Source: Lawsonibacter sp.
GTDB lineage: Bacteria; Bacillota; Clostridia; Oscillospirales; Oscillospiraceae
Length of the DNA stretch: 33,943 bases
Direction: 5' to 3'
Assembly: GCA_022791995.1 (NCBI GenBank)
Contig: JAAWAD010000002.1
Span: forward strand, 1-33,943
The position numbers and the translations under genes are program-made. This document shows positions 7,220-13,626 of the stretch, piece after piece. Positions within the stretch are counted from its first letter, which is position 1; every line of letters starts with the position of its first letter. The notes under the pieces were generated by a model. That model worked only from the letters and a program-made list of their open reading frames with translations. It was not told the DNA's origin and did not search any database.

Positions 7220-7275
7220 ACAGCTTCTTTACTTGCAAAATCTCTTTTCGGGTATTATGTTGTTGTATAGAATGC

Positions 7276-7313: not shown

Positions 7314-8153
7314 ATGAAACATAAAAAGCAAAAGCTGCTCCTGTGGCTGGGTATCCTGGGGGTTCTGCTGGTTGGGGTCTTCCTGACCGGCAGCCGGGGG
7401 GGCGGACACGGGGAATCCATCCAGACGGCCATGCGGGACGCCGTGCTCCACGACGTGAACCGGATCAGTCTGCTGGGCCTGAAGGACGTGAACCCGGGGC
7501 TGATCTCTGCCATGCTGGTGACCGCCGTGCTGCTGCTGGCCGCGGCCCTGCTCCGAGTGCTGGTCATTCCCCGGTTCCAGTATGTCCCCGGAAAGCTCCA
7601 GCTGGTGCTGGAGGAGGCGGTGGGCATGTTCGACCGGATGGCCAGGTCCAACAGCCCGCACCGGAACCGCTTTCTGGGGGCCTATCTCTTCGCGGCGGGG
7701 ACCTACATCTTTGTGGGCACCCTCTTCGAACTCTTCGGCTTTCAGGCGGTGACGGCGGGGGGCGCCTCCATTGCCCTGCCGGCCCCCCTGTCCGACGTGA
7801 ACGCCGCCATCTCCCTGGGCTGCCTGTCCTATCTGGTGATCCTCTCCGGCGGAGCGGCCGGGGCGGGATTCCACGGGGTTATGGCAACCCTGAAGGAGTT
7901 CTCCCTGCCCATCTCCATGAGCTTCCGCCTCTTCGGCGCGCTGCTCAGCGGGCTGCTGGTCACCGAGCTGGTGTACTACTATGTCCAGCTCAGCTTTCTG
8001 CTGCCGGTGGTGGTGGGGGTGCTGTTCACCCTGCTCCACGCCCTGATCCAAAGCTATGTGCTTACCATGCTGACCGCGCTGTTTTACGGCGAGGTGTCGG
8101 AACCCGCACCAAAAAAAGAGAAAAAAAAGAAAGGCCGCAGCGCTCAGGCCTGA
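7314..8153 (+). CDS. atpB: F-type ATP synthase subunit a
   Basis: 279 aa membrane protein. It begins MKHKKQKLLLWLGILGVLL, a basic end followed by a hydrophobic helix. The essential arginine lies in ISMSFRLFGALLSG (the family normally reads MRLFGN). The last helix has HALIQSYVLTMLTALFYG, matching the conserved C-terminal Q-containing segment. The C-tail is lysine-rich. Subunit a forms the two half-channels against the c-ring in the F0 sector. The start is uncertain: no strong ribosome site lies before ATG 7314 (GGGAA is 13 nt away), and an in-frame GTG at 7305 with GGGAA 5 nt upstream is an alternative. It is first of seven genes, a-c-b-alpha-gamma-beta-epsilon, with no atpI upstream. Confidence 0.93.
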   Translation: MKHKKQKLLLWLGILGVLLVGVFLTGSRGGGHGESIQTAMRDAVLHDVNRISLLGLKDVNPGLISAMLVTAVLLLAAALLRVLVIPRFQYVPGKLQLVLEEAVGMFDRMARSNSPHRNRFLGAYLFAAGTYIFVGTLFELFGFQAVTAGGASIALPAPLSDVNAAISLGCLSYLVILSGGAAGAGFHGVMATLKEFSLPISMSFRLFGALLSGLLVTELVYYYVQLSFLLPVVVGVLFTLLHALIQSYVLTMLTALFYGEVSEPAPKKEKKKKGRSAQA

Positions 8154-8178: not shown

Positions 8179-8538
8179 ATGAATTTCAGAAAAAAATTCG
8201 TGTGGATGCTCCTTTTGACCCTGCTCCTCACGGCGGCTCTCGCCGTTCCCGCCTTTGCCGCCCCCGGTGAGCCCGAGGACGCTCCGGCCGCCGCCCAGAG
8301 CCAGGAGGAGAGCGGCATCGGCCTGAAGGCGGTCGCCGCCGGTCTGGCCATCGGCCTGGGCGCCGCCGGCGGCGCGGTGGGTATGGGCCTTGCCACCGCC
8401 AAGACGGCGGAGAGCATCTCCCGCCAGCCCGAGGCGGAGGGCAAAATCCGCACTACATTGATGCTGGGCCTGGTCTTTATTGAAACGGCGATTATTTATG
8501 CCCTGTTGGTGGTTATCCTGATTATATTCGTGCTGTAG
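8179..8538 (+). CDS. atpE: F-type ATP synthase subunit c with an N-terminal signal-like extension
   Basis: 119 aa, versus about 70-90 for most c subunits. GGAGG at 8165-8169 fixes ATG 8179. The extra N-terminus is a textbook signal peptide (MNFRKKF, then LLLTLLLTAALAVPAFA, likely cut after AFA), followed by ~20 acidic/Pro/Ala residues. The c hairpin follows: helix 1 GLAIGLGAAGGAVGMGLA, polar loop ISRQPEAEGK, and helix 2 LGLVFIETAIIYALLV with the ion-carrying Glu in FIET. The helix-1 position that is Gln in sodium-type c subunits is Met here, so protons are more likely; this is inference. It lies 25 nt after atpB and 87 nt before atpF. Confidence 0.93.
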   Translation: MNFRKKFVWMLLLTLLLTAALAVPAFAAPGEPEDAPAAAQSQEESGIGLKAVAAGLAIGLGAAGGAVGMGLATAKTAESISRQPEAEGKIRTTLMLGLVFIETAIIYALLVVILIIFVL

Positions 8539-8625: not shown

Positions 8626-9138
8626 ATGAATATTCCCCTGAATATTGACTGGCAGCAGATTTTGCTGCACCTTTTGAACTTTGCCGTGCTGGCCGGCGGG
8701 CTGTACTGGCTGCTATACAGCCCGGTGAAGGCGTTCCTGGCCAAGCGGGAGGCGTACTACCAGAATCTGGAGGAGGAGGCCCAGAAAAGGACCGAGGCCG
8801 CCGCCCGGATGGAGCAGGACTGCCGGCAGCAGATGGAGCTGCTGGAGGAGGAGATCCGGGTCCGTCGGGCAGAGGCCCAGTCGGAGCTGCGCCGCTCCAT
8901 CCAGGCCCAGACCGAGGAGGCCAAGGAGCAGGCCGCCCGGATTCTGGCCGACGCTCGGGCCGCGGCCAGCCTGGAGCGGGACAAGATGATGCGCTCGGCC
9001 AACCAGGAGCTGTCCGCTATGGCCGCTGCCGCCGCCGAGAAAATGCTTCTTCAGGCGATGGCCCTGAAGGCGGAGGGCAACCCTTACGACCAGTTCCTCC
9101 GCATGACGGAAGGAGGCGGAACGGATGGAAGCAAGTGA
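8626..9138 (+). CDS. atpF: F-type ATP synthase subunit b
   Basis: 170 aa. It begins [20 protein letters not shown] with one membrane helix ([16 protein letters not shown]), then [22 protein letters not shown], the usual start of the b stalk. The rest is a long charged coiled coil rich in Glu, Arg, Gln and Ala up to [13 protein letters not shown], and a short tail. The length is that of an ordinary b subunit, so it does not carry a fused delta domain. Role: peripheral stalk dimer linking subunit a to F1. Its 3' end overlaps the next gene by 14 nt. Confidence 0.93.
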
Positions 9139-10882
9139 GCGCACCGGGGAGAAGGCGGTCATCAAAAGCAAAACCCAGCCCACCCCGGAGCAGATGGAGC
9201 GGTTTGCCGCCTTTCTGGCCCAGAAGTACCAGCACCCTGTGCCGGTGGAGTGGAAGCAGGAGAGCGAGATGCCCGACGGCTTCCGGCTGGAGGTGGGCTC
9301 GGACGTCTATGACTGGTATCTGGAGAGCTGGCTGCGCCAGCTGAAGGAGCGGCTGGAGGGCCTGACCCCCGGCCAGAGCTCCGCCATCCCCCTGATCCGC
9401 CAGACCATGGAGAACTGGTCCCCCTCCACCCAGCCGGTGGAGCAGGGCGAGGTGCTCTCTGTAGGCGACGAGATCGCCCGGGTGAGCGGCCTGGAGCGGG
9501 CCTCCTTCGGGGAGATCCTCCTCTTCGCCTCCGGGGTGAAGGGGATGGTGCAGGAGCTGCGCCAGGACGAGATCGGCTGTATCCTCTTCGGCGACGACCG
9601 GGAGATTCAGGCGGGAAGCCGGGTCTACCGCACCGGTAAGACCGCCGGCGTCCCTGTGGGCGAGGAGTTTTTGGGCCGGGTGGTGGACGCCCTGGGCACC
9701 CCTATCGACGGCAAGGGGGAAATCCGAGCCACCGAGTACCGGCCCGTGGAGCAGCCCGCCCCCACCATTGTGGAGCGCCAGCCGGTGAACCGGCCCATGG
9801 AGACCGGCCTGCTGGCCATCGACTCCATGTTCCCCATCGGACGGGGCCAGCGGGAACTGATTATCGGGGACCGGCAGACCGGCAAAACGGCCATCGCCCT
9901 GGATACCATCCTGAACCAGAAGGGAAAGGACGTGGTGTGCATCTATGTGGCCATCGGACAGAAGGCCAGCTCTGTGGCCCGTCTGGTGGATACCCTGACC
10001 CAGCGGGAGGCCATGGATTACTCCATTGTGGTCAGTGCCCCCGCCAGCGCCCCCGCCTCCCTCCAGTACATCGCCCCCTACGCCGGCTGCGCGTTGGGAG
10101 AGTACTTTATGCACAAGGGCCGGGATGTGCTGATCGTCTACGACGACCTGTCCAAGCACGCCATCGCCTACCGGGCCCTGAGCCTGCTGCTGGGCCGCTC
10201 CCCCGGACGGGAGGCCTACCCCGGCGACGTGTTCTACCTCCACTCCCGCCTGCTGGAGCGCTCGGCCCACCTGTCCGACGCCCTGGGCGGGGGCAGCATG
10301 ACCGCCCTGCCCATCGTGGAGACCCAGGCGGGCGACGTGGCCGCCTATATCCCCACCAACATCATCTCCATTACAGACGGCCAAATCTTCCTGGAGAACG
10401 ACCTGTTCTATGCCGGACAGCGGCCGGCGGTGAACGTGGGCCTGTCCGTCTCCCGCGTGGGCGGCGACGCCCAGACCAAGGCCATGAAGACCGCCGCCGG
10501 GGCCATCCGACTGGACCTGGCCCAGTACCGGGAGATGGAGGTCTTTACCCAGTTTGCCAGCGACCTGGACGAGGCCACCCGCCGGCAGCTGATCTATGGC
10601 CAGGGGCTGATGCGCCTGATCCGGCAGCCCCAGTACCACCCCATGAGCCAGCACGAGCAGGTGCTGACCCTGCTGGCCGCCCTGCACCACGTGATGCAGG
10701 AGGTCCCCCTGGACCGGATGGAGGAGTTCCGCCAGGAGCTGGTGGACTATGCCCGGGAGCAGGAGCCCGAGCTGTGCCGGGAGATCGACCGGACAGGCCA
10801 GCTGAGCCAGGAGGACCGGCAGAAGCTGCTGGCCCTGTCCCAGTCCTTCCTGAAAAAATGGCAGGAAAAGTGTGGTGGCTGA
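9125..10882 (+). CDS. atpA: F-type ATP synthase subunit alpha with an N-terminal delta-like domain (delta-alpha fusion)
   Basis: 585 aa, about 80 longer than usual. AGGAGG at 9113-9118 fixes ATG 9125, so the extension is translated. Residues ~18-80 read like the C-terminal domain of delta/OSCP: a helix [17 protein letters not shown], a strand pair around VPVEWKQE and [13 protein letters not shown], then a helix [12 protein letters not shown]; delta normally has GGxxxRIGDxVIDGSxxxxLxxLxxxL here. Ordinary alpha follows: N-terminal helix [23 protein letters not shown], Walker A GDRQTGKT at residues 248-255, and [10 protein letters not shown] with the arginine finger. No separate atpH exists between b and alpha. 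Alpha holds the non-catalytic nucleotide sites of F1. The fusion would tie the b-binding part of delta covalently to alpha. Confidence 0.92.
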
Positions 10883-10883
10883 G

Positions 10884-13626
<2,743 letters not shown>

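Follow-up and report, generated by a model that had tools for sequence, protein, structure and literature searches.

The window, a 33,943-nucleotide stretch of Lawsonibacter DNA, holds an entire F-type ATP synthase operon. Its genes run a-c-b-alpha-gamma-beta-epsilon, and a separate delta open reading frame (ORF) is absent. The alpha gene (9125..10882; forward strand, like every window feature given below) encodes a protein of 585 residues in which the C-terminal domain of delta (deltaCTD) immediately precedes alpha within a single open frame. By analogy with an engineered enzyme that has the same fusion we favour, on balance, the view that this is a natural multi-stalk synthase with a high ion-per-ATP ratio, the number of stalks being the inferred part.

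That the extension is the C-terminal domain of delta rather than the whole subunit is as good as certain: a curated profile, the comparison of profiles with solved structures and the predicted fold all agree. When residues 1-92 are searched alone, residues 6-77 (9140..9355) match positions 100-172 of the 172-position OSCP model PF00213 with 29.5 bits; the whole protein scores 25.8 bits over residues 7-77, above the gathering cut-off of 22.3. The model is matched only from position 100 onward, and a custom profile for the delta N-terminal domain finds no match in the window operon: the suggestion of a first-pass annotation of this DNA that the N-terminal domain had been dispensed with is upheld. 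The same annotation had recognised the delta-like extension but set its start at about residue 18; the likeness stands, but the domain begins near residues 6-11. Against NCBIfam, residues 1-92 match delta, b/delta and N-ATPase-type b models at their C-terminal ends, all far below the cut-offs.

A linker and the retained alpha N-terminal helix follow (residues ∼78-106, 9356..9442), then the beta-barrel, nucleotide-binding and C-terminal domains of alpha (9443..10882; PF02874, PF00006 and PF00306, at residues 107-171, 228-443 and 450-574). In the structure model a helix occupies residues 89-97, with a mean predicted local distance difference test score of 51 and lower around the linker and helix blocks. 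The F-type alpha model TIGR00962 is matched over residues 89-579 with 734.8 bits (curated cut-off 484.45). The ATG at 9125 stands eight bases after a seven-base Shine-Dalgarno (SD) match, AAGGAGG (9110..9116), and the gene overlaps the 3′-end of b by 14 bases. Subunit b itself (8626..9138) is of ordinary length, 170 residues, with an ordinary ATP-synt_B match (PF00430, E 1.4e-10) and none to delta. On the delta-less gene order, the ordinary b and the 585-residue alpha translated from a clear SD site, ORFs and profiles bear out what had first been noticed.

The layout is one of several among relatives. A survey of 250 genomes of the family found OSCP in 143 and alpha (E 1e-100 or better) in 141, and 132 loci besides the window (L002-L133) were annotated with profiles built for this analysis. 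These loci were chosen to favour unusual layouts (nearly all of the unusual ones plus a sample of the classical), and the 41 of 133 that are deltaCTD-alpha, the window included, are no measure of frequency. Classical operons with a separate delta account for 39 loci (L009 and L115 are the same operon) and a full delta fused to alpha for ten. Complete triple fusions, b′-deltaCTD-alpha, adjoin a separate b at 12 loci (L025-L031 and L033-L037; for example L027:4014-6251:-). Eight loci carry the delta C-domain alone, one of them (L096, near a contig end) doubtfully, and six carry b-deltaCTD. Single loci show a tandem deltaCTD-deltaCTD-alpha (L021:4044-6065:+) and a b′-deltaCTD plus separate deltaCTD-alpha (L039); 13 are cut by contig ends and two lack a visible delta. 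Curated Pfam models confirm the full fusion in L016, the triple fusion in L027, the tandem in L021 and the gamma-beta fusions in L081 and L082. L032, first counted as deltaCTD-alpha in the tree, was relabelled by hand as a triple fusion (the gene is cut by the start of its contig, and the sister locus L031 is triple).

Together the relatives form a series: separate delta; full delta-alpha; deltaCTD-alpha; b′-deltaCTD-alpha; lone delta C-domain; and b-deltaCTD with a gamma-beta fusion. The triple fusion is the boldest new variant. All four of those read (L026, L027, L031 and L035) start with a hydrophobic helix, and an alpha so built would be membrane-anchored, three times per enzyme. In the tandem L021 the repeated unit seems to include the alpha N-terminal helix. 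The free delta C-terminal domains at L083, L085, L086, L089, L090, L092 and L093 are frames of 76-124 residues that lack the N-terminal domain. L085 and L086 are operon copies 1.7 Mb apart in one single-contig genome (G098), identical over the alpha tree columns; the alpha frame of the second copy is shorter (445 versus 502 residues).

Across the phylum, at least 20 of 398 genomes, the window's among them and 10 families represented, have a fused stop-free open frame of more than 560 residues, a count that is a lower bound for one profile and misses other layouts. Of the 19 non-window loci 17 were fetched; they comprise 15 of the deltaCTD-alpha type, a full delta-alpha fusion (L215) and a locus without a match to the custom delta profile (L230). 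A scan of named genomes gave 572 loci, and in the best 80 by similarity to the window the fusion is present in 80, one of them a tandem (L185). This is partly a product of selection, and the unit counted is the locus rather than the genome: L181 and L199 come from the same isolate, and at least three of the 80 duplicate loci already in the family set (L141/L050, L174/L058 and L175/L040). The fused fraction says little; the taxonomic spread of these loci, which takes in Oscillospiraceae, Lachnospiraceae, Mogibacterium and others, does mean something. Records that carry no label as metagenome-assembled genomes (MAGs) include Eubacterium ruminantium FB3002 (the species is represented by L207; its alpha, of 583 residues, has the same extension), Acutalibacter sp. 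1XD8-36, Anaeromassilibacillus senegalensis An867 and Lachnoclostridium sp. An181.

This recurrence in independent assemblies makes it untenable to dismiss the fusion as the product of a chimeric contig, or as a decayed and non-functional remnant of delta. Such an origin is very improbable, even though the contig (33.9 kb) belongs to a draft genome with 2.19% contamination and other layouts occur within the genus. The fusion recurs in 40 other family operons and, among the best-matching named loci, in isolates. The neighbouring formate-tetrahydrofolate ligase is closest to that of a genome of the same genus (G128, 83% identity), so that the contig fits the genus. In relatives, moreover, the extension is under purifying selection: omega is below 1, ranging from 0.09 to 0.77 over 16 close pairs (nine deltaCTD-alpha, four full and three triple fusions), although pairs share loci, some have synonymous divergence (dS) above 1, and in full and triple fusions the ‘extension’ is the entire N-terminal part.

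Could a separate delta lie elsewhere in the genome? The fused domain is the sole OSCP match in the source assembly (E 1.1e-6). That assembly is 80.37% complete, in 101 contigs, and alone it cannot exclude a missing atpH; relatives give the better answer. Among the 41 family genomes with the deltaCTD-alpha layout, the window's included (63 to 100% complete), 38 have at most one OSCP match genome-wide, and the remaining three (G008, G099 and G176) have an additional classical operon with its own delta.

The number of stalks that the enzyme can offer turns on whether every alpha carries the domain. The first-pass annotation had supposed three fused copies per F1, and this is what we expect, since the linker shows no start-like site from which plain alpha could be made: the fusion is very probably present on all three. 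The window linker contains a single ATG, with no SD match. Across 67 fused loci the linkers contain 116 in-frame start codons, preceded by an SD match of at least four bases in 19 cases and of at least five in four; within the same alpha genes, a control set of 1619 start codons gives 308 and 58. True starts, by comparison, have at least four matching bases in 37 of 41 deltaCTD-alpha genes, nine of ten full fusions and 11 of 14 triple fusions. It is conceivable that an internal start or cleavage yields plain alpha and that each enzyme combines one fused with two plain copies around a normal single stalk; cleavage would be invisible in sequence, and the linker is predicted with low confidence. 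However, linker starts are no better than those of the in-gene control, 16 of the 67 linkers have no start codon whatsoever, and linkers hardly vary in length (65 of them span 16-30 residues; the exceptions measure 55 and 59). We consider such a mixed pool improbable.

The six b-deltaCTD operons (L081, L082, L084, L087, L088 and L091; for example L082:1684-3984:-) are instructive here. In each, gamma and beta share one frame of 767-814 residues, which joins rotor to stator in sequence, and at each junction there is a start codon (five ATG, one TTG) with an SD match of 6-7 bases; the prediction is that each enzyme has two free beta besides the fused one. Judged from these signals, relatives can place an internal start where stoichiometry needs one, here for three beta to a single gamma; the deltaCTD-alpha linker has no such start. 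A further locus, L042, on the short contig G046:C40, likewise has gamma and beta in a shared frame, with beta interrupted further on by a frame change, perhaps a sequencing error.

What such an enzyme might do follows from the normal role of delta. In ordinary synthases a single delta caps F1, with the N-terminal domain occupying the axis and bound to the N-termini of two alpha subunits, and the C-terminal region in contact with the third alpha and the b-dimer (PMC12229609); a related account of its placement exists for Mycobacterium (PMC8617483). In the window protein delta is trimmed to the b-binding C-terminal domain and joined to the alpha N-terminus, and each of three alpha would offer a dock for a b-dimer stalk. 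Once the N-terminal domain is gone, the threefold axis on top of F1 would be unblocked and two or three stalks could assemble, each with its own a subunit. An enzyme of this kind would translocate more ions for every ATP formed, and a smaller ion-motive force would suffice for synthesis.

Precisely this change was engineered by Ueno et al. (2025; PMC12229609), who removed the delta N-terminal domain in Bacillus PS3 FoF1 and fused the C-terminal domain to alpha. Their enzyme carries as many as three stalks with one a subunit apiece, and its H+/ATP ratio is 5.8 versus 3.0; its cryo-electron microscopy (cryo-EM) classes with 0, 1, 2 and 3 stalks hold 15, 51, 26 and 8% of particles. Domain for domain, this construct has its natural equivalent in the window protein, which may likewise be able to carry more than one stalk, and we put the chance that the enzyme has more than one in the cell at slightly better than even.

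An alternative interpretation is that all three alpha carry the domain but only one binds a b-dimer, with normal amounts of a and b, or membrane room for one stalk, setting the limit; the fusion would then merely give the stalk a firmer anchor and save a gene. The cryo-EM data can be read in this direction, two or three stalks being seen in 34% of the engineered particles (26% plus 8%), but the biochemistry of the same enzyme indicates roughly two stalks and an H+/ATP ratio twice as high (PMC12229609). The existence of full delta-alpha fusions, whose extra N-terminal domains would idle, suits a single stalk, as does the absence of any sign that translation of a or b is boosted; against it, in the b′-deltaCTD-alpha relatives the alpha chain itself incorporates a b-type stalk that begins with a hydrophobic helix. 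A single-stalk enzyme strikes us as a possible but less probable outcome.

Several observations do weigh against multiple stalks. The mean SD duplex energy of a is weaker in deltaCTD-alpha operons than in classical ones (-7.2, n = 37, versus -11.5, n = 27; start calls for a are uncertain), and that of b slightly so (-9.2 versus -10.9). Full delta with its N-terminal domain is fused to alpha at the ten family loci and at L215 outside the family; three N-terminal domains cannot all sit on the axis, and the fusion may therefore first have served something other than extra stalks, such as firmer anchoring. The N-terminal domain is likewise missing from standalone delta C-domains and b-deltaCTD proteins, which shows that it can be lost without fusion to alpha. 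Omega of the extension equals or exceeds that of the alpha core. Finally, searches of an open-access library yielded no structure or stoichiometry for any natural member.

The history of the fusion was approached through trees of the alpha core, built by a quick search. For clade tests 146 of 152 rows were kept; L096 and L131 (first called standalone C-domains, near contig ends), L227, L122, L130 and L230 were dropped. Fused types are scattered over several places of the tree. A single clade of all deltaCTD-alpha rows (69 rows, p-AU 0.0033) was rejected, as was one of all alpha-fused rows (95 rows, p-AU 7.9e-5). The window falls in a deltaCTD-alpha clade (36 rows, support 99) nested in one that also holds full delta-alpha (48 rows, support 98). 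Two other deltaCTD-alpha loci, L041 and L043, adjoin full fusions (support 92) within a mostly classical group, and four of the ten family full fusions (L018 and L022-L024), which match the N-domain profile partially, are placed among forms that lack this domain. Parsimony calls for at least nine changes for fusion to alpha and at least nine for the N-terminal domain, gain, loss and transfer not being distinguished. The simplest path would be fusion of delta to alpha first and loss of the N-terminal domain afterwards, more than once; transfer and fission are also possible.

Three layouts occur in the genus of the window alone: separate delta (G189, L097), full fusion (G128, L016) and the deltaCTD-alpha of the window; two further genomes of the genus (G039 and G237) have no alpha match at E 1e-100 or better. 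The window alpha is not sister to those of its genus in the alpha-core tree. That same-genus alphas lie in different parts of this tree suggests that ATP synthase operons have been exchanged whole.

A broader proposition is compatible with these data: that natural F-type synthases with two or three stalks and equally many a subunits occur in many members of the Bacillota, most of all in gut and rumen Clostridia, having arisen several times when delta was first fused to alpha and its N-terminal domain later lost, and that one lineage went on to a single membrane-anchored b′-deltaCTD-alpha chain that would force three stalks. As a whole, with all its parts, we hold this tentatively, as somewhat short of an even chance.

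Among the remaining genes of the operon, subunit a (7314..8153, ATG at 7314; PF00119, E 6.4e-18) has a possible alternative in-frame TTG start at 7233. Subunit c (8179..8538) matches PF00137 at residues 53-115 (E 1.7e-15); by eye, a signal-peptide-like N-terminal stretch (8179-8334) precedes its usual hairpin, and long c frames are frequent in the clade to which the window alpha belongs. Gamma (10884..11768, ATG at 10884, with a possible in-frame GTG at 10872) and beta (11783..13204) were identified as ORFs with custom profiles, and epsilon (13201..13626) by PF02823 and PF00401. Elsewhere in the source genome (contigs C44, C55 and C96) there are two RnfC genes above cut-off and a V/A-type ATPase D subunit. 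This organism probably has another rotary ATPase besides the F-type enzyme. Rnf is an ion pump of modest drive, and a low-gear F-type synthase beside Rnf and a V/A-type ATPase would make sense.

If natural deltaCTD-alpha enzymes do have several stalks, anaerobes living near the thermodynamic limit gain a second means of reducing the force that ATP synthesis requires: every ATP synthase described to date has just one a subunit, and the ion-per-ATP ratio changes with ring size (PMC12229609). Because cultured bacteria have the fusion, among them E. ruminantium from the rumen, a species regarded as harmless, the idea is directly testable, and the graded relatives show how a domain that limits stoichiometry can be fused and then dropped.

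Among systems that resemble the window operon, N-ATPase also has no separate delta (PMC5706428), and the end of its b model, TIGR03321, matches window residues 3-76, far below cut-off. There, however, the stalk is a longer b (PMC5706428), and the gene order is beta-epsilon-..-a-c-b-alpha-gamma (PMC5709465), unlike the a-c-b-alpha-gamma-beta-epsilon of the window. As an N-ATPase alpha the window protein scores 623 bits, below the TIGR03324 cut-off of 750.5. The mycobacterial b-delta fusion likewise joins delta covalently to another stator part, but on b, with a full delta and a duplicated domain, and in one copy per enzyme (PMC8617483). The closest likeness is to the PS3 construct, deltaDeltaN-alpha (PDB 9JC1): the trimming of delta and the fusion are the same, the length is 580 residues there and 585 in the window, and the profile match has E 8.6e-7. 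The construct is designed, has a truncated epsilon and has had its stalks measured, whereas the window protein is natural, accompanied by a complete epsilon and known from sequence. Natural cases too are in print, contrary to the first-pass annotation, which knew of no published delta-alpha fusion: the Discussion of PMC12229609 names Acidaminococcus fermentans and the UniProt entries G4Q3K6 and A0A1I2C5T3, and predicts multi-stalk enzymes. As described there, the A. fermentans fusion shares both architecture and predicted consequence with that of the window, which adds a member to a kind noted once. In searches of an open-access library we found no mention of its breadth in gut Clostridia, of full delta-alpha intermediates, or of b′-deltaCTD-alpha, tandem deltaCTD and gamma-beta fusions.
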